Shown: piece after piece, positions 1 to 17,225 of the stretch
Position numbering within the stretch: position 1 is the first letter of the stretch
How the letters are laid out: every line of letters begins with the position of its first letter
IMG/VR virus record: IMGVR_UViG_3300021197_001037
Coordinates: 1-27,607 of that record
Strand: one strand, 5' to 3'
Origin: a virus
DNA length: 27,607 nucleotides
The notes under the pieces: generated by a model
Told to the model about the DNA's origin: nothing
The model's database searches: none
The model's input: only the letters and a program-made list of their open reading frames with translations
Made by a program: the position numbers and the translations under genes

Positions 1-132
1 GCCTATGATCCAACGTTTAATATGACGCAGTTCAGGATTTGTATATCGTGCATAAACAATACCGTTAGCACGTTCATATACTAGTTCTTCGCCTGGTATG
101 TTGTGATCAGGATTGGTATTCTGTTGCCGCAT
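1..132 (-). CDS. Hypothetical phage protein, N-terminal part (runs off window)
   Basis: An open frame starts at an ATG at 132 and stays open to the window edge, giving 44 residues beginning MRQQNTNPDH, then a stretch rich in Glu, Tyr and Arg (GEELVYERANGIVYARY). It overlaps the last 26 bases of the adenine phosphoribosyltransferase gene in another frame, in keeping with the tight packing of the region. Nothing else fills these bases. The protein resembles short uncharacterised proteins of T4-like marine phages in style only, and no domain can be named from this fragment. It would be the last visible gene of the purine-salvage transcription unit. Confidence 0.6.
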   Translation of the reverse strand, partial: MRQQNTNPDHNIPGEELVYERANGIVYARYTNPELRHIKRWIIG

Positions 133-628
133 AAAAAGGTATTCCTTGCTGTATAATGCTTTTACTACCACCTAAAAAACTTAAATCCATTGCTACTGCT
201 ACTGCAATAGGAGTAGCGTGTAGTTCATAAATCATGTCTATAGCGGCTTGCATAGTACCTCCAGTAGCCATTAAGTCGTCTATAATAATAACTCTATCGC
301 CTCTGTTGATACTATCTTTTTGTATTTCCATTGTAGCAGTACCATACTCTAGTTCAAATGTGTTGCTTACTGTAGCACCAGGTAGTTTGCCTTGTTTACG
401 GCATAGTACAAGACTGCCTCTTGTTCTATGTGCAAGCACTGCACCAAATATAAAACCTCTTGCATCTAAACCTACAATTTTATCCACAGGACAATACTTG
501 AGTAGGTTATCATACATGTAGTTGTTTGTAAGTTTAAATCCTTCACCTGCACATAAACTTGCTGTGCATTTAAAGTCCACGCCCTTTTTAGGGAAGTCTG
601 GATAACTTTTGATATACTGTTTAATCAT
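107..628 (-). CDS. apt: Adenine phosphoribosyltransferase
   Basis: Condenses adenine with PRPP to AMP and pyrophosphate in the cytoplasm (purine salvage). At 173 residues it is full length for the family. It begins with the typical YPDFPKKGVDF opening. It carries the GLDARGFIFG segment at residues 53-62, the KQGKLPG and FELEYGT segments (about 78-96), and the PRPP-binding motif VIIIDDLMATGGT at 113-125. These together separate APRT from hypoxanthine and orotate enzymes. The ATG at 628 overlaps the stop of the upstream PRTase gene by 8 bases, so the two are probably translationally coupled. Its place below a secreted nucleoside-type binding protein suggests salvage of imported purine into nucleotides for phage DNA synthesis; that link is inference. 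No key residue appears to be missing. Confidence 0.93.
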   Translation of the reverse strand: MIKQYIKSYPDFPKKGVDFKCTASLCAGEGFKLTNNYMYDNLLKYCPVDKIVGLDARGFIFGAVLAHRTRGSLVLCRKQGKLPGATVSNTFELEYGTATMEIQKDSINRGDRVIIIDDLMATGGTMQAAIDMIYELHATPIAVAVAMDLSFLGGSKSIIQQGIPFYAATEYQS

Positions 629-1034
629 ATTGGTTATTTGCTGTTGGCATAGTAAACAGTGCTTTTACAAATCCACCTTCTACTGTATCACTTGGTTTGC
701 GAGCAAACACACACCAACGAAACCCTTGTTGCATTGTCCACATAGGATAGTTCTCTGCAATAAATTCTCGGAAACTTGTACCAGTGGTGTAAACATCATC
801 AACAACCATTACTTCATCTGTAGGAACACCGCTGGCATACTTGTTAAGTGCATCTGCAAACTTGACACCACCTCTTGGGATACCTACTGCTTTGTAAAAA
901 GGACGGTTTTGATATTCCATAACCATTTTTGCACATGCGGCCCATTCTGCATCTGTAAGTGCATCCATTTCAATTTTCCATGTCATTGGAATGCCTGCGT
1001 GTGATATAAAGTCTTGTTCTTGAAATAAATCCAT
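621..1034 (-). CDS. Phosphoribosyltransferase-domain protein
   Basis: A 137-residue type I PRTase-fold protein. The PRPP-binding loop is visible as VMVVDDVYTTGTS at about residues 75-87, preceded by the GIPRGGVKFA segment (51-60), which corresponds to the usual pyrophosphate loop. The N-terminus (SHAGIPMTWKIEMDAL, residues 11-26) is a hallmark of a small PRTase family found in phages and bacteria, related to orotate PRTases but shorter (orotate enzymes run about 200 residues). The substrate base cannot be read from the sequence. It lies one base after the oxygenase stop and overlaps the start of the APRT gene, so both PRTases are made from one message. A role in nucleobase salvage is likely; a regulatory or degenerate role cannot be excluded. 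Confidence 0.85.
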   Translation of the reverse strand: MDLFQEQDFISHAGIPMTWKIEMDALTDAEWAACAKMVMEYQNRPFYKAVGIPRGGVKFADALNKYASGVPTDEVMVVDDVYTTGTSFREFIAENYPMWTMQQGFRWCVFARKPSDTVEGGFVKALFTMPTANNQYD

Positions 1035-1035
1035 G

Positions 1036-1893
1036 TTAATAACTCTGTGCTAATCGCCACATCAAGTATTCCTTGCTTTCAATAGGATCATACTTGTTTG
1101 GCTCGTTACGCAAGTTCTGCACAATAGTTCCTGGTGTAGGATCTACGAAGTGTGGCATGCTGTAACGTGTTTGGTCAATGTGTGTGTTTACTACTCTGTG
1201 CTTAGTGCTAACAAAGTAATCGTTTGTCCAACGCTGTAGTAAGTCACCAATGTTGACCACGACACCATCTTCTGCATAGGGTACGGGATGCCAAGCACCT
1301 CCTAAATCCTGTACTTCAAGTCCTGGCACATTATTAATCTGCCATAACAGTGTGATGGTGCCGTAGTCACTGTGTTCACCAATGCGCATTTGCTTGTCCT
1401 CTAGTGGACCAGTGTATGCAGGGTAGTGAATTACTCGTGTTGTATTATATGGATCCTGATGCGCATCTACTAGTGTAGTACCGCAGTCTAGGATAGTATC
1501 AAACTTAGCAAGTATACGCAGTGTTAGATCATCTGCAATACGAATAGTTTGTAATCCTGTTGTACGAAGGTCAACTTCCTCTGGCCATAACGCTTCTGGC
1601 ATGCGTGTATTATTGTAGTTGAAACTTTCTTTCATATCTTTAGGAGCAGTTGGGTCTACATTTTCTGCACCCATAACACTATATCCTAAATTGTTTTCTG
1701 CTTGATAACTATATTTCTGCTTTTTATCCAAGTCCAGTTCAAAGAACTGCTTCATGTAATCAAACCAGTTTTTCATAGTTTGTTGATCAGTTGGATCTAA
1801 TGTATTAGTGAAGACTGCGAAGCCCACTGAGGTGTAGGCTTCGCGAATCTCGTCCAATACTGATTCACTTGTGAAATCAATAACTGGAATCAT
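1036..1893 (-). CDS. Isopenicillin-N-synthase-like 2OG-Fe(II) oxygenase
   Basis: A 285-residue non-haem iron oxygenase of the isopenicillin N synthase / flavonol synthase superfamily. It opens with the typical MIPVIDF followed by a DIOX_N-like half (residues 1-110). The catalytic double-stranded beta helix follows: H174-x-D176 in GEHSDYGTITLL, H232 in STKHRVV, and the 2-oxoglutarate-binding R243-x-S245 in TRYSMPHF. All iron and cosubstrate ligands are present, so it should be active. The substrate is unknown. Its gene begins inside the TAATG that ends the BMP-family binding-protein gene and is followed at once by two PRTases. The sequence context therefore points to oxidation of an imported purine, nucleoside or base, but this is inference. 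An unrelated hydroxylation is the alternative. Confidence 0.88.
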   Translation of the reverse strand: MIPVIDFTSESVLDEIREAYTSVGFAVFTNTLDPTDQQTMKNWFDYMKQFFELDLDKKQKYSYQAENNLGYSVMGAENVDPTAPKDMKESFNYNNTRMPEALWPEEVDLRTTGLQTIRIADDLTLRILAKFDTILDCGTTLVDAHQDPYNTTRVIHYPAYTGPLEDKQMRIGEHSDYGTITLLWQINNVPGLEVQDLGGAWHPVPYAEDGVVVNIGDLLQRWTNDYFVSTKHRVVNTHIDQTRYSMPHFVDPTPGTIVQNLRNEPNKYDPIESKEYLMWRLAQSY

Positions 1894-2963
1894 TACTTAG
1901 GTACCGTTGCGTCAATACCCTCAACATAGTAATTCATTGTGTTGAGGTGTGCATCATCAGCAACAACACCATCTGCAAGTTGCAGTTTGCCAGTGTTGTC
2001 TTTGATAGGACCTGTAAATGCAAAGTACTCGCCTTTAGAGATAGCATCTTTAATTGCTTGTGCTTTTGCTTCTACGTCTGCTGGCATATTTGTAAACGGT
2101 GCCATTTGTACAGCATCTTCATTCATATGACCAAAGTAATCCTCAACTTGCCAGTTACCATCAATAACTTGTCCTACTTTCTTAATATAGTAAGGACCCC
2201 AGTTGTCAATAGTTGCTGTAAGTTGTGCTTTAGGAGCAAACCTGATCTGATCGCTTGCCTGACCAAAGCCTAATTTGCCTTTTAGTTGTGCAGCCTGCAA
2301 CGGAGCAGGACTATCAGTGTGTTGTGCCATCATATCACAGCCTTCAGCCATCATAACGTTTGCAGCATCTGATTCTTTACTAGGATCATACCAAGTGTTT
2401 ACCCAAATGATGTCAATATCAACTTTAGGATTTACACTCTTTGCACCCATGTAATAGGTGTTAATTTCACGGATAACTTCCGGAATAGGGTACGCACCAA
2501 CATAACAAATCTTGTTTGTCTTTGTCATTAGTCCTGCAATAACACCTTGCACATGGCGTGCTTGATACAAGCGCAAGCCATATGTACTCATATTGTCTGC
2601 ACGTTTGTAACCTGTTGCATGTTCAAACTTTACATTTGGAAAGTCTTTTGCAACTTTAAGCATTGGCTCCATGTAACCAAAACTGGTTGCAAAAATAATA
2701 TCTGCACCATCTTTTGCCATCTGACGAATCACACGTTCTGAATCAGGACCATATTGTACGCTTTCGGCGTAGATTGTTTCAACTTTGTCTCCGTATGCTT
2801 CTTCTACTTGTTGACGACCAATGTCATGACGATATGTCCAGCCATGGTCACCGATAGGCCCGACATATACAAATCCAACCTTTACTTTGTCTGCTGCAAC
2901 TGCACTAAATGTCATGCCAAGCACAACTGCTAGTGAAATTACTAGTGTTTTAATCATATTCAT
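1893..2963 (-). CDS. Secreted BMP/PnrA-family nucleoside-type substrate-binding protein
   Basis: A 356-residue periplasmic binding protein of the Bmp/Med/PnrA family, whose known members bind purine nucleosides for ABC importers. Residues 1-23 form a signal peptide: Met-Asn-Met-Ile-Lys, a hydrophobic core, and an AVA cleavage site before ADK. There is no lipobox cysteine, so the mature protein is predicted to be soluble in the periplasm. The family pattern follows: VGFVYVGPIGDHGWTY, an IRQMAKDGADIIFATSFGYM segment, and GLRLYQARHVQGVIAGLMTK. No permease or ATPase gene is in the window, so it would have to plug into a host transporter. The ATG at 2963 has an AGGAA Shine-Dalgarno at 2974-2978 right after the pseudoknot leader. 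The stop overlaps the oxygenase start as TAATG. A substrate-binding protein gene in a T4-like phage is unusual; the PstS of some cyanophages is the nearest precedent. Confidence 0.92.
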   Translation of the reverse strand: MNMIKTLVISLAVVLGMTFSAVAADKVKVGFVYVGPIGDHGWTYRHDIGRQQVEEAYGDKVETIYAESVQYGPDSERVIRQMAKDGADIIFATSFGYMEPMLKVAKDFPNVKFEHATGYKRADNMSTYGLRLYQARHVQGVIAGLMTKTNKICYVGAYPIPEVIREINTYYMGAKSVNPKVDIDIIWVNTWYDPSKESDAANVMMAEGCDMMAQHTDSPAPLQAAQLKGKLGFGQASDQIRFAPKAQLTATIDNWGPYYIKKVGQVIDGNWQVEDYFGHMNEDAVQMAPFTNMPADVEAKAQAIKDAISKGEYFAFTGPIKDNTGKLQLADGVVADDAHLNTMNYYVEGIDATVPK

Positions 2964-2975
2964 TTTCGATCTTTT

Positions 2976-3013
2976 CCTTTCGAGGGTTTTTACTGGAGGT
3001 GCTCGAATCCTCC
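2976..3013 (-). promoter_or_regulatory. H-type pseudoknot leader (candidate riboswitch) before the BMP gene
   Basis: The 56-base gap before the BMP gene can fold into a compact H-type pseudoknot on the transcribed strand. Stem 1 pairs GGAGG (3013-3009) with CCUCC (2999-2995). Six loop bases UUCGAG (3007-3002) pair perfectly with CUCGAA (2984-2979) downstream. A ten-base A-rich linker AGUAAAAACC (2994-2985) crosses stem 1. The last pseudoknot base is immediately followed by the AGGAA Shine-Dalgarno of the BMP gene, so stem 2 formation would block ribosome access. The architecture recalls preQ1-I and SAM-II class translational riboswitches. However, the base before the stem 1 3' strand is A rather than the guanine-reading C of preQ1-I, so it is not a canonical member. 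The ligand, if any, is unknown. Confidence 0.5.
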
Positions 3014-3019
3014 GTTTTT

Positions 3020-3199
3020 TTACTTTGTTAAGGGTACTACAATAGTACTATCGTTATAGTCGCCGTCGCTACTATACGTTCTCTCAACAGTGTGTTTGAT
3101 TAACTTATCATCACGCATGTAGTATGATGTTAGTTCTTGTCGAATAACCCCGTCGGGTATATTGTTAAATGCTTGTAAAAGTGGTCCGTCACGATTCAT
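3020..3199 (-). CDS. Small hypothetical phage protein
   Basis: A 59-residue protein starting MNRDGPLLQAF at the ATG at 3199. A GGAG Shine-Dalgarno lies six bases upstream, and the start overlaps the end of the radical SAM gene by 11 bases. An in-frame TTG at 3211 could extend it by four residues but has no comparable ribosome site. The body is polar and beta-rich in character (VIRQELTSYY, HTVERTYSSDGDYNDS), with no membrane segment, cysteine or recognised motif. It ends with TAA just before the A-rich run that leads into the pseudoknot. No function can be assigned. Confidence 0.65.
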   Translation of the reverse strand: MNRDGPLLQAFNNIPDGVIRQELTSYYMRDDKLIKHTVERTYSSDGDYNDSTIVVPLTK

Positions 3200-5057
3200 G
3201 GTCAACTCCAATAATTGATTTACCCCACCCTTGACGTCTGCGATAATACAGTCTATTTACATACTCGTCATGTGGTAGGTCTGGTTCTTGAATGTTTATT
3301 ATATAAGATGTAGGAGTCTTTGTCAATTTGTTTCCTCTGAGAAACTCTTCGAAGTTATATTTACTTTCAACTTTATACGGGTAATTAGTATAGGGATCAG
3401 TTGTAAATATACGTTGATAATTCACTAATTCCTGCCATAACTCAGGATCTACGTCAAGTATACCTTTGAAAACACTGCTTAGGAAACTTGTTATATCATG
3501 TTTGTTTTCATGGAAACTTGTTTGTGCATCCCACATTAATGTATGTCCATCAAAATGTTGATGTCCGGAAGTGCCACCAGTTCCGTGTGTAAGGTAATAA
3601 GTTATATTTGTTCGCGCTTGCTGGTATACTGTATTGACTAATCCTTGGTCTTGTTTTATAGCAATCATCAATTTATCATACATGCTTCTATAACTTGTAC
3701 CCTGACTATTTGCATATCTAGTATATACTTGTGACCAACCGAAACAATGAAAATTGGTTATCATCCAACTATATAACCAACTATCTACTAGATCGTCAAA
3801 AGGCATATACTTTGTGCCTACTACAAGCTCTGCACTTTCTTCTACATCATCTTCTTCTTCGCTACCACTTACATAACCATGTGCTGTCACTGTTTTAAAA
3901 CCATGTAGTTCGCGTTGTTCTGGTTTGTTTAATTCAGCATTTTCTAACAACTGTAGTAGCCAACTTTCAATTGCACCATGTTGTCCCGCTTCAAGAATCG
4001 CACACTGTCCGTTTGCCCATGAGTCATAAGTTTCTTCAGGCAATCCAAGAATAGTTTCTGTATAACTCTGGATGCCTTCCTTATTGCACTGAGCAAACAT
4101 ATCTTTGAGACTGCTAATCTCCATGTTCTTTCTTTTAATTGATGTAAGTACTGCATCGTCCATGCTTTGAACACTCAACGTCATACCTCGATTGGATTGT
4201 TCTGAGCTTGTAAACTTCTTTACAATCTGTAAAACTTTTTCACTTGAATTTTTATACCACGCAGTATCTACTACTTTGGGAAATCCGTAAAGTTTTTGTA
4301 GCCTTAGAAGTTCATCAGTTATTGCCATATCTCGTTCAAAGAACACACCAAAGTTTGCATCAGCAATGGTGCAAAAATCAATACCATTTTTTGCAATCCA
4401 TTCCAATTCTGCAAATACTTTTTCCAATTCAAATTTACGAATCTTTGCGTAGGTAAGACTTCCCCAGTCGCAAAACGTACACTGAAAAGGGCACCCTCTG
4501 TTTGTTTCCAGTGTAGCATTAAAAACAAATTTAGAATTATTTTTCATTATATCGTCAAATACTCCAGTGAGGTAAGGACTTGGAATATCTAAATTGTTTA
4601 AGCGAGCACCCTGATATATGGGTAAAAGATCTCTTCCATCCACAACAGTTTCTAATATTTTAGTAAAAGTCTCTTCTCCCTCAGTCAAACAAATTGTATC
4701 AATATAATTATGACTACTAAAGAATTCGTCTGTTGGTCTATCTGTTATTTGTGGACCACCCATTATAATCTTACAGTCCGGAAACTTTGTTTTAATGCTT
4801 TGGGCAAGTGCTTTGTTGTATTCCCAGTTCCACATATAACAACTTAAAAAACACAGATCTAGATTATCTAAACGTGCAACTAGTCTACTAATGCGTTCTC
4901 TGCGAAATATAATATCTACTAATTCAAAGTTTTCCTTAACAAAATCAAACTGTTTTGCATAACTCCAAAGACAGCCAACACTGTAAGGCAACCAGTATCC
5001 TTGTAGACTACCGATACCAATCTTAAAGTTAGGTTGAACTAAAAGTACTTTAATCAT
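3189..5057 (-). CDS. B12-binding-type radical SAM enzyme
   Basis: A 622-residue class-B radical SAM protein. The N-terminal Rossmann-like part (residues 1-150, MIKVLLVQPN and later IIMGGPQITDRP) matches the cobalamin-binding domain of this class, though a classical DxHxxG is not visible. The [4Fe-4S] motif is C189-x3-C193-x2-C196 in NRGCPFQCTFCDWGS, followed by a TIM-barrel domain through about residue 420 and a long C-terminal extension of unknown role. Relatives do methylations, ring closures and C-C bond chemistry on tetrapyrroles, lipids, sugars and antibiotics; the substrate here cannot be read. The start ATG overlaps the amidinotransferase stop as ATGA. It shares an operon with GTP cyclohydrolase I and an amidinotransferase, so the three may act on one small molecule; that is inference. 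Confidence 0.85.
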   Translation of the reverse strand: MIKVLLVQPNFKIGIGSLQGYWLPYSVGCLWSYAKQFDFVKENFELVDIIFRRERISRLVARLDNLDLCFLSCYMWNWEYNKALAQSIKTKFPDCKIIMGGPQITDRPTDEFFSSHNYIDTICLTEGEETFTKILETVVDGRDLLPIYQGARLNNLDIPSPYLTGVFDDIMKNNSKFVFNATLETNRGCPFQCTFCDWGSLTYAKIRKFELEKVFAELEWIAKNGIDFCTIADANFGVFFERDMAITDELLRLQKLYGFPKVVDTAWYKNSSEKVLQIVKKFTSSEQSNRGMTLSVQSMDDAVLTSIKRKNMEISSLKDMFAQCNKEGIQSYTETILGLPEETYDSWANGQCAILEAGQHGAIESWLLQLLENAELNKPEQRELHGFKTVTAHGYVSGSEEEDDVEESAELVVGTKYMPFDDLVDSWLYSWMITNFHCFGWSQVYTRYANSQGTSYRSMYDKLMIAIKQDQGLVNTVYQQARTNITYYLTHGTGGTSGHQHFDGHTLMWDAQTSFHENKHDITSFLSSVFKGILDVDPELWQELVNYQRIFTTDPYTNYPYKVESKYNFEEFLRGNKLTKTPTSYIINIQEPDLPHDEYVNRLYYRRRQGWGKSIIGVDHES

Positions 5058-5929
5058 TTTCTGTGTAAATCCAATGTTGTGCAGTGATGTCCACCTCCTA
5101 GTGTTCTCGAATGTGCAAATGGTACAGTGTAACTTAGTACTCCATTTGCTCGCAGTGCTTGCTCTAGTTTAGGACAGTCATCAATAACAGCCAGGTCTGG
5201 ACGAATCATAAAGAAATTTAATAGTATATAATTACTTGCAAATGCTTCGCCAGAAAAACTTTTGTGTGTTAAATCTTCATCGCCTAACCAAATAACTTCC
5301 CAATCTTTAAAGCATTTAGGCAATGTTTTCTTATTTACTCTATCCTTATTTACAACAACAAGTCCATCTGCAACAGGACTAAACGTGCTATCAATATGCA
5401 CACCACCATAAGTTTTGGTAACTTCTACTGTATGATTTGGAAACTGTTCTTGTAACCAATTTGCACCTGCTCTTGTGCCGCTGACGCTTTGTAGATATAA
5501 CAGTGTTTGGCCCAGTCTACAAACATTAGCAGCATCAAAACGCACCCATCTATTGCGTGGGGCAGTAATAACACGCTTTGCACTTTTGAGAACGTAGTCA
5601 TAATAACGGCTCTCTTGCTCTCTGCATGCATACTGCATGTTACAATCAACAACAGTATTACCAACTACTAACAGCCTATCTCTTGGACAATAGTTGTACA
5701 TGCCGCCTGTTAGTGAAAAGTTATGATACTTGGGTCTGTGTACTTTTACACCTTCTTGCTCCAGTGTTCTAGCAAAGCGATCCAAGTCCATGTCTGCTTG
5801 TGCAGTTACATGTCCTGGATATGCACCAGGCTGAGCAAAATGGCAACCCTCAGGCTTGTTAGCACCGGCTGCCATTCCTACTACCACACTACGAAGTGGT
5901 GACCATTCGTTGTGCGAACTTATTTTCAT
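5054..5929 (-). CDS. Arginine:X amidinotransferase-like protein
   Basis: A 291-residue member of the amidinotransferase / dimethylargininase (pentein) superfamily, closest in motif to arginine:glycine amidinotransferase and StrB-type inosamine-phosphate amidinotransferases. These move the amidino group of arginine to an amine. Visible motifs are the opening HNEWSPLRSVVVG, the Asp-containing FDAANVCRLG (D132), the catalytic His in VHIDSTFSPVADG (H178), and the nucleophilic Cys near the end in GGGHHCTTLDLHR (C283). It is shorter than StrB or AGAT (about 350-420 residues) but keeps the Asp-His-Cys triad. It begins within the TAATG that ends FolE. The acceptor is unknown; candidates are an amino-sugar, a polyamine-like metabolite or a modified base. 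Confidence 0.85.
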   Translation of the reverse strand: MKISSHNEWSPLRSVVVGMAAGANKPEGCHFAQPGAYPGHVTAQADMDLDRFARTLEQEGVKVHRPKYHNFSLTGGMYNYCPRDRLLVVGNTVVDCNMQYACREQESRYYDYVLKSAKRVITAPRNRWVRFDAANVCRLGQTLLYLQSVSGTRAGANWLQEQFPNHTVEVTKTYGGVHIDSTFSPVADGLVVVNKDRVNKKTLPKCFKDWEVIWLGDEDLTHKSFSGEAFASNYILLNFFMIRPDLAVIDDCPKLEQALRANGVLSYTVPFAHSRTLGGGHHCTTLDLHRK

Positions 5930-15727: not shown

Positions 15728-15730
15728 GTT
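15718..15730. repeat. Perfect 6-bp palindrome AACTTG-T-CAAGTT
   Basis: Bases 15718-15730 read AACTTGTCAAGTT, a perfect inverted repeat around one base, with a further AACTTG half-site at 15710-15715. The whole -35 hexamer of the adjacent promoter is covered, as is part of the stop codon of the DpdA-like gene. This is the layout of an operator. Confidence 0.5.
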
Positions 15731-17225
15731 AAACTTCCTCAAAAAGACTGTAAAACTGTGTACTGGCGTTTACTGTCTTTTTGCCAATAGCACCACGGCT
15801 ACCAACTACACGCATCCACAAACGACTATGATCATCAATAAGTTTCATTTGTTTGTCAAAATCATCCAGTTCAAATATGCGAGCGATTACATCTTTAACT
15901 GCAGTTGCTTCAAAGTTGTCATCAACTAGTTGATAAGGATAACTACCTTCGTCATAAAGTCTATTAGTTTCTTGTACACTGCGAATATGGGTGTAAACAT
16001 TATGATTCATTAACAGTGCGTAACTGAATGTATCCCAACTAGTTTTACCTTCAAGTCCATTCTTATTGAGATCACCTGGTGCATATACACAAATATCTTT
16101 TAGAGTCATGTTCTGCGTAATAGGACTTGGCATCCAATTACTGTATAGTTTTGCGCAATAGTCATCCCAGGGTGTTGTATCATTACTGAATGCTTTATCA
16201 TCTGGAGCATTTTCCATAATGTATCCCCACTTTTCATTTTGTGGATGCTTGTAATATGTGTACTGTTGTCCATTACTTGTTGCTAAGAAAGGACTTGCGC
16301 AATCAAAACTAATAGTAAAGTTTTCATTATATAATTTACGAACGCCACGTTGAATAGCAGTAAGTACACCTGCCCATTCAAGTTTGCCTGTACCCAGAAC
16401 GTGCATCCAATCATGCTGTCCTTTTTCAAGTAAACCATCATGCATCAGTGTTACTATACGTTTGAGGATAAGATGTACATCACATGCATTTTGTCCACCC
16501 ATAGCATAGCCTTCAAAATGTGCATCTGGATAAACACTGGAATCATTAAACACTTTCATCTGTTCATACCAAGCATCTGCTTGTGCATGATTCTCACCCT
16601 GTAGTACATTTAAAAACTTACAATCACCATTGCGATTTTTGATAAAGTATTCATTATTAAATGCAGTTGCGTCTGCTGCTTCTTGATATGAACTAATCTG
16701 TGAGGCTGCAGCACCTTCTGGACTACGACTTAACCAGGCTGGCACATCTAGGATCATGCCATAGTCCATATACTTGTCCATCCAACGTAGTACACCATCA
16801 CGCTTCTTTTGTGCCTGTGGACAACCACTGCCTGCTTTCCAATCACCTGGCCATTTACCCTTACCAATCTGAAAGCCACCACTGTCACCCAGCATAAAAC
16901 TGTTACTGCGATCACGTTCACGATACATCATTTCACGCGGCAAGTCTTTTTCAATATCCAAACTACTATGACCAGCACTGTGCAAACTCCATTTGTAGTG
17001 CCAGACTGGATTAGGTTTTAGATAGTCCATATTAATTGCTGCAGGACCCAGGCATTCAGGGATGCGTTCCTGCAATACACTGGGATTATTGGATCCTGCA
17101 CTGTGCCGCGCCTTTCCAGTTACATTCACGTAGAATGAACTAAGTGCTGGAAGAAACACTGCGTAGTCATTTTGTAGTTCAGTTAGGTTAGTTGGTAAAT
17201 TGTTCATATTTTTCAAACAGTTCAT
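15729..17225 (-). CDS. dpdA: DpdA/TGT-like 7-deazaguanine transglycosylase
   Basis: A 498-residue TIM-barrel protein of the tRNA-guanine transglycosylase superfamily, best matched to phage DpdA, which swaps guanine in DNA for a 7-deazaguanine. Key TGT sites are present. The base-binding Asp is in LGDSGGFQIG (D114), the glycine loop in GYAMGGQ (about 239-245), and the HVLGTGKLEW loop at about 275-284. The nucleophilic Asp is in SFDCASPF (D308). The C-terminal Cys-x-Cys-x2-Cys zinc cluster of tRNA enzymes is missing, while the LLMNHNVYTHIRSVQ helix that follows it is kept. Loss of the zinc site argues for DNA rather than tRNA, though this is inference. The start is at 17225 or the next ATG at 17207, both inside the sulfotransferase-like gene. 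Confidence 0.75.
   Translation of the reverse strand: MNCLKNMNNLPTNLTELQNDYAVFLPALSSFYVNVTGKARHSAGSNNPSVLQERIPECLGPAAINMDYLKPNPVWHYKWSLHSAGHSSLDIEKDLPREMMYRERDRSNSFMLGDSGGFQIGKGKWPGDWKAGSGCPQAQKKRDGVLRWMDKYMDYGMILDVPAWLSRSPEGAAASQISSYQEAADATAFNNEYFIKNRNGDCKFLNVLQGENHAQADAWYEQMKVFNDSSVYPDAHFEGYAMGGQNACDVHLILKRIVTLMHDGLLEKGQHDWMHVLGTGKLEWAGVLTAIQRGVRKLYNENFTISFDCASPFLATSNGQQYTYYKHPQNEKWGYIMENAPDDKAFSNDTTPWDDYCAKLYSNWMPSPITQNMTLKDICVYAPGDLNKNGLEGKTSWDTFSYALLMNHNVYTHIRSVQETNRLYDEGSYPYQLVDDNFEATAVKDVIARIFELDDFDKQMKLIDDHSRLWMRVVGSRGAIGKKTVNASTQFYSLFEEV

Follow-up and report, generated by a model that had tools for sequence, protein, structure and literature searches.

The leader of a gene for a BMP/PnrA-like purine-binding protein (BMP) in IMG/VR virus record IMGVR_UViG_3300021197_001037 raises the question of whether a compact pseudoknot in front of the start codon is a regulatory RNA and, if so, of what kind and for which signal. 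The stretch of DNA analysed, here called the window, comprises 27,607 nucleotides (positions 1 to 27,607 of the record). The initial annotation described two perfect crossing stems of 5 bp and 6 bp, the last paired base of which abuts the Shine-Dalgarno sequence. Both stems are present on the minus strand, where 11 of 11 pairs are Watson-Crick and the final base of P2 adjoins AGGA (2978-2975). Within 51 nt upstream of the BMP AUG, P1 (GGAGG/CCUCC) crosses P2 (UUCGAG/CUCGAA), and the complete window form is GGAGG-A-UUCGAG-CA-CCUCC-AGUAAAAACC-CUCGAA-AGGA. A loop of 1 nt over a 6-bp P2 and one of 10 nt over a 5-bp P1 are normal for the sterics of H-type pseudoknots. The features are listed in Table 1.

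Table 1. Features of the BMP leader and its surroundings in the window, and loci of the class B leader
Feature	Position	Strand	Evidence or remark
P1, 5' strand GGAGG	3009..3013	-	sequence; P1 compensations in homologues
L1, 1 nt (A)	3008	-	sequence
P2, 5' strand UUCGAG, in P1 loop	3002..3007	-	sequence; complementarity kept in all aligned homologues
L2, CA, place of the preQ1-I ligand-reading base (relatives UC/AC/CC)	3000..3001	-	sequence comparison
P1, 3' strand CCUCC	2995..2999	-	sequence; homologue compensations
L3, A-rich linker AGUAAAAACC, 10 nt	2985..2994	-	sequence
P2, 3' strand CUCGAA	2979..2984	-	sequence; homologues
Shine-Dalgarno AGGA, abuts P2	2975..2978	-	sequence
BMP start codon AUG	2961..2963	-	sequence
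BMP/PnrA-like purine-binding protein, 356 aa, putatively regulated gene	1893..2963	-	Pfam PF02608 1.1e-52; PDB 3s99 1e-118, 6pi5 7e-104
2OG-Fe(II) oxygenase, downstream	1036..1893	-	Pfam
Phosphoribosyltransferase-like protein, downstream	621..1034	-	weak Pfam/NCBIfam
Adenine phosphoribosyltransferase, downstream	107..628	-	NCBIfam NF002636, above its cut-off
Small upstream ORF, 59 aa, stop codon 6 nt before P1	3020..3199	-	sequence
B12-binding radical SAM protein	3189-5057	-	relative of KedN5-type C-methyltransferases, below cut-off
Amidinotransferase-like protein	5054-5929		with the radical SAM gene, between FolE and BMP
TGT-fold protein, 498 aa, DSGGFQ	15729-17225	-	AlphaFold2 pLDDT 85; structure matches
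Class B leader	L038 4920-5000; L040, L042, L052, L058, L073, L278; L348-L351		L348-L351 are SAR116 single-cell contigs

Taken by itself the pseudoknot in the window is weak evidence, because perfect H-type pseudoknots of 5 + 6 bp are frequent in order-1 Markov copies of the window: with both strands searched under loose loop limits, about 8 occur per copy and about 6 in the window itself. A pseudoknot abutting a Shine-Dalgarno sequence with an ATG behind it was found in 6 of 200 copies. The P1 hairpin also appears in the nested minimum-energy fold, with a z of -1.3 that is not significant. It is the comparison with homologous leaders, and not the single pseudoknot, that argues for the element.

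Viral BMP relatives were gathered by four scans and their leaders were then read. They contain a compact family located directly 5' of the start codon, with the consensus GGCAG-AGU(AUCUCCUUA)CGAUC-CUGCC-uuAACACCC-UCGAAAGGA. The long form is GGCAG-AGUAUCU-CCUUACGA-UC-CUGCC-ACAACACCC-UCGAAAGG-A and the short form GGCAG-AG-UCGA-UC-CUGCC-UUAACACCC-UCGA-AAGGA; in two short-form types (L007 and L084/L094) an extra hairpin is inserted between P1 and L3. The window element is a diverged member of the phage BMP-leader family. The family members all come from metagenomic contigs, several of them from phages related to one another, and the window subtype consists of three near-copies. A gene-blind DNA scan of 2.9 million viral contigs with the pattern AACACCCTCGAN{0,2}AAGGA returned 64 stretches, of which 32 carry the P1 stem and all 32, by reading, stand before BMP; the remaining matches have no stem and look like chance. 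The window leader likewise lies immediately 5' of its BMP gene. Among the matches listed for a wider pattern, most were GC-rich chance occurrences, except for the known BMP leaders. A second UCGA is seen by the start codon (AUCGAAAAUG, AAUCGAUG), at 2965-2969 in the window and just before the ATG in L026, L084 and L094, and is not conserved in the remaining members; it could be an alternative partner for the loop UCGA, competing with the P2 3' strand, in a docking that covers the start site.

The initial annotation had proposed a test for compensatory changes in both stems and had named leaders that fail to keep both as grounds for rejection. In alignment A3, which holds 27 distinct leaders and excludes the window, both stems are kept and every P1 and P2 cell is a standard pair; compensation was found in P1, with two-sided changes at four of the five pairs, and P2 shows no two-sided change. 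The P1 variants are GGCAG/CUGCC, GGCGG/CCGCC, GGCUG/CAGCC, GCCAG/CUGGC, GGUAG/CUACC and AGCAG/CUGCU. No shuffle matches A3 in its paired cells, its covariation score or its number of two-sided pairs, and at most one such pair is obtained when the partner strand is slid along. Adding the window contributes a further compensation (A-U at P1 pair 3), the sole unpaired cell then belonging to L007, which is misaligned at its insert. P2 pairs perfectly with little variation (a single C-G to U-G change); its 3' side, the near-invariant UCGAAAGG, overlaps the Shine-Dalgarno sequence and is fixed anyway. The helix is formed with differing 5' strands in the long, short and window forms, and the two P2 flank changes of the window both extend it. 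Conservation and these flank changes, as distinct from covariation, are consistent with P2 rather than proof of it. A covariance model built from A3, and hence blind to the window, gives the window 17.9 bits (E 0.0048), the only significant match in 714 kb, although this is far below the 50-75 bits of core members; confident matches in viral loci sit at BMP starts.

Among 145 distinct BMP rows, nearly all of them viral, 23 have the long form, 11 the short form, 3 the window form, 11 the class B leader described below and 97 none. The family leader (long, short and window forms) precedes 37 of the 145 genes and spans two deep clades, with 23 label changes on the BMP tree against 46 in shuffles, and the distance from the end of the motif to the start codon is 7-13 nt in 37/37. 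Chance complementarity, which the abundance of such pseudoknots in Markov copies might suggest, or an operator at the DNA level, which would conserve sequence and not complementarity, is a very remote explanation: it is largely refuted by the P1 compensations, and strand specificity, the fixed spacing to Shine-Dalgarno and start codon, and the occurrence in 37 rows across two deep clades speak against it as well.

In the scans made here the family leader was not found at gene types other than BMP. The covariance model detected no motif at 75 bacterial BMP loci and no convincing match in 101 genomes of the SAR116 order, where only chance matches in coding sequence were seen, and the phages collection held neither a close BMP nor a copy of the element. 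Bacterial covariance-model matches in L534-L536 and L428/L429 were rejected because they fall within coding sequence, in two instances in a GyrB-like frame. An element confined to phages, as far as tested, would suit a translational operator, where an RNA-binding protein of phage or host origin would bind the pseudoknot and set the timing of BMP synthesis independently of any metabolite, as would the T4-like polymerase (family B) of the window phage; T4 controls translation by protein-bound operators, including the pseudoknot in the gene 32 leader. PMC3014915 belongs to this field of study. Such an operator is nevertheless rather unlikely here, since the BMP product is exported, which makes autogenous repression improbable, and since one would expect a repressor of general use to the phage to act at several genes and not at one gene type.

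Long-form leaders have a TATATA box within 60 nt in 22 of 30 cases, mostly 17-28 nt upstream of P1, and the predicted 5' UTR would therefore extend little beyond the pseudoknot. No such box accompanies the short and window forms (0/15), several of which sit between operon genes. The 59-aa ORF upstream of the window leader also precedes BMP in L009, L010 and L026. A constitutive structural element, giving low basal translation, coupling to the upstream ORF or protection of the mRNA 5' end with no switching, would accord with so short a long-form 5' UTR and with the position of the window P1 just past the stop codon, within reach of a terminating ribosome that would unfold it. We rate this explanation as unlikely, because the letters of loop and L3 (AGU, CGANC, ACCC) are over-conserved for mere stability and because the element occurs behind promoters as well as within operons.

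The window leader and signal-peptide region (2889-3013) are 99% identical to those of L009 and L010 (about 4950-5075), the gene bodies being ~80% identical. L001 and L002, on the other hand, are about 92-95% identical to the window in the body and 31-43% in the leader, with the motif absent. Because leader and body identities disagree in this way, leader and signal peptide are regarded as one recombining module. In L008 and L024 (4900-5000) the upstream ORF of the window is kept and is followed by BMP with a plain Shine-Dalgarno sequence, the pseudoknot being absent; from their sequences, these leaders would represent a natural deletion control.

The reading that we favour, with a probability of about 0.55, is that the leader is a cis-acting translational OFF switch of the 'direct occlusion' kind, as in preQ1-I and SAM-II, and that it probably senses a purine or 7-deazapurine. 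Both of these riboswitches share this architecture, and in them ligand-driven closing of the pseudoknot blocks the ribosome-binding site (PMC10907184). Conservation, P1 covariation, gene specificity and position on the Shine-Dalgarno sequence are apparent from the leaders compared, and the layout of direct occlusion, with two crossing helices and P2 on or against the Shine-Dalgarno sequence, is found in them, for P2 by conservation only. We infer that P2 would form in solution and stack with P1 as an H-type pseudoknot. Closure of P2 would pair the Shine-Dalgarno sequence itself in the long form (CCUUACGA with UCGAAAGG) and would place the helix against it in the short and window forms; loading of the 30S subunit would be blocked in both situations. 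Most likely a metabolite fitting the P1/P2 junction would stabilise the closed state, and abundant ligand would then repress the purine-binding protein. The chief rival is a translational operator that is protein-bound or purely structural. Metabolite sensing is favoured over a general phage operator because of the position on the Shine-Dalgarno sequence and the association with a single gene, and caution is called for because the element is phage-restricted and P2 shows no covariation. The lack of the element at the 75 bacterial BMP loci and of a convincing match in the 101 SAR116-order genomes would be unusual for a metabolite riboswitch and counts against one, as do the differing putative ligand-reading base of the window and the 97 of 145 BMP genes with no such leader.

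The candidate ligand follows from the gene content of the phage. The initial annotation had called the regulated gene a purine-type transport gene, and homology and pocket residues agree with a binder of purine bases. BMP is ~55% identical to the purine-binding proteins AtzT (matched at 7e-104) and Brucella 3s99 (1e-118), in which adenine was modelled. AtzT binds guanine at 110 nM and adenine at 2.5 uM, the base sitting between Tyr45 and Trp194 with Ser97, Phe98, Glu165, Asn218 and Asn220 (PMC6834077). The pocket of the phage protein (W42, W191, S94, F95, E162, H215, D217) is the set of 3s99, and QHTDS is present in 128/128 phage BMPs scored. In the long-form clade BMP occurs without the 2OG oxygenase and phosphoribosyltransferases alongside. 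Deazaguanine genes, also claimed at the outset, are borne out by FolE, encoded upstream in the window phage, and by the 498-aa TGT-fold protein (15729-17225). The latter has no Pfam, PHROG or PADLOC match, and 44 of its 44 PDB matches at E <= 0.001 are tRNA-guanine transglycosylase; its predicted structure makes it a candidate DpdA-like base exchanger. Because of the purine pocket of BMP, the phosphoribosyltransferases, FolE and the TGT fold, purine bases and 7-deazapurines are the first ligand candidates, and one of these is, by inference, most likely the ligand.

Some close relatives have a further conserved leader, class B (GGGUGANGCAUUUUAGUUAAAGAACACCCUCUA, stem GGGUG/CACCC), ahead of BMP. 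AACACCCUC is common to class B and the pseudoknot family, and Rfam gives no match to class B. The two are treated separately because class B has another stem and another loop and because a crossing helix there is doubtful on steric grounds. A search of SAR116 genomes recovered class B at no loci beyond the known BMP ones, other pattern matches being at about control level. L348 (3700-5940; also L349, L350 and L351) carries a truncated phage amidinotransferase gene followed by the class B leader, BMP and 2OG oxygenase, with cellular genes adjoining. From its gene order this arrangement suggests that genes have moved between these phages and SAR116, which is a plausible host.

Riboswitch-like RNAs known from phages are few. 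The present element is a compact pseudoknot that Rfam lacks; it accompanies a single phage metabolic gene in BMP lineages that are deeply separated, and its family of candidate ligands is chemically obvious. If purine binding is true, the leader would rank with the smallest known riboswitches, and marine phages would tune nucleobase uptake during infection. Only tentatively, at somewhat less than even odds, do we propose a new class of translational riboswitch of ~38-45 nt for purine uptake in marine phages, with a purine or 7-deazapurine ligand and a window type that may read a different one. The junction base, which is C in the family and A in the window, offers a ready-made natural contrast in specificity.

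Among known systems preQ1-I (RF00522, types I-III) is the first to be compared. A search with the Rfam preQ1 and SAM models, as suggested in the initial annotation, gave no match, and Rfam as a whole returned none for window or leaders at gathering or relaxed cut-offs; weak matches (DUF805 at 15.9 bits against a gathering cut-off of 51.1, DicF, snoRNAs) were dismissed as chance. The leader of E. coli yhhQ (L537 9160-9220), a queuosine-precursor transporter gene, which we take to be the E. coli example of preQ1-I type III, was missed by Rfam release 15 even at E 10. It shows the type III features described in PMC11625349. Because this leader is missed too, Rfam silence alone does not decide against preQ1-I type III, a blind spot wherever Rfam is used to exclude preQ1-I. 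Shared with preQ1-I are the H-type pseudoknot, a 5-bp P1, an A-containing L3 of similar length, a Shine-Dalgarno sequence in or at P2, a transporter-type gene downstream and the translational occlusion proposed above. The misfit at the ligand-reading base, noted at the outset, holds for the window, with CA in place of UC or AC before the P1 3' strand, and not for its relatives, which mostly have UC or AC (one CC) and an invariant C in 27/27 A3 rows; by sequence the window is thus an outlier of its own family at this junction base. The family differs further in that P2 is longer (UCGA core), the gene is another one, the UU flanking the P1 5' strand in types I and III is replaced by AG (AU in the window), and L3, A-rich in the window and uuAACACCC in relatives, ends in CC and not in A. 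A true variant of preQ1-I, close to type III and with preQ1, preQ0 or guanine as its ligand, would draw on the 5-bp P1, the 9-10-nt L3, the C in all relatives, the type III-like CCUU/AAGG pairing of the long form, FolE and the TGT-fold protein, and the equal blindness of Rfam to the E. coli leader. It is quite improbable in view of the L1 and L3 differences, the lack of the specificity C in the window, the failure of family model R1 to match the yhhQ leader meaningfully, and a gene, BMP, that is not a known queuosine gene. On the features compared, the leader would work like preQ1-I without being a member, as part of the OFF-switch reading favoured above.

SAM-II and SAM-V occur in alphaproteobacteria and marine sequences and share the H-type pseudoknot that buries the Shine-Dalgarno sequence; they differ in that their Rfam models, run without a positive control, gave no match in the window even at relaxed cut-off, and BMP lies outside methionine metabolism. 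The SAM/SAH riboswitch is likewise described as a small H-type pseudoknot with occlusion of the ribosome-binding site (PMC7367207), whereas the leader has no Rfam match to it and BMP is not a gene of SAM metabolism. An open-access literature search found no paper on a riboswitch of BMP or of SAR116 phages. The T4 gene 32 leader is a phage mRNA pseudoknot upstream of a Shine-Dalgarno sequence; there the product is its own repressor and the pseudoknot lies well upstream, whereas BMP is exported and P2 touches the Shine-Dalgarno sequence. The manA and wcaG motifs of T4-like cyanophages and the glutamine riboswitch of marine phage Melnitz (PMC2864571, PMC9004378) differ from the leader in sequence and architecture, and none was detected by Rfam in the window; like it, they are structured leader RNAs of marine T4-like phages and precede genes of metabolism or regulation.
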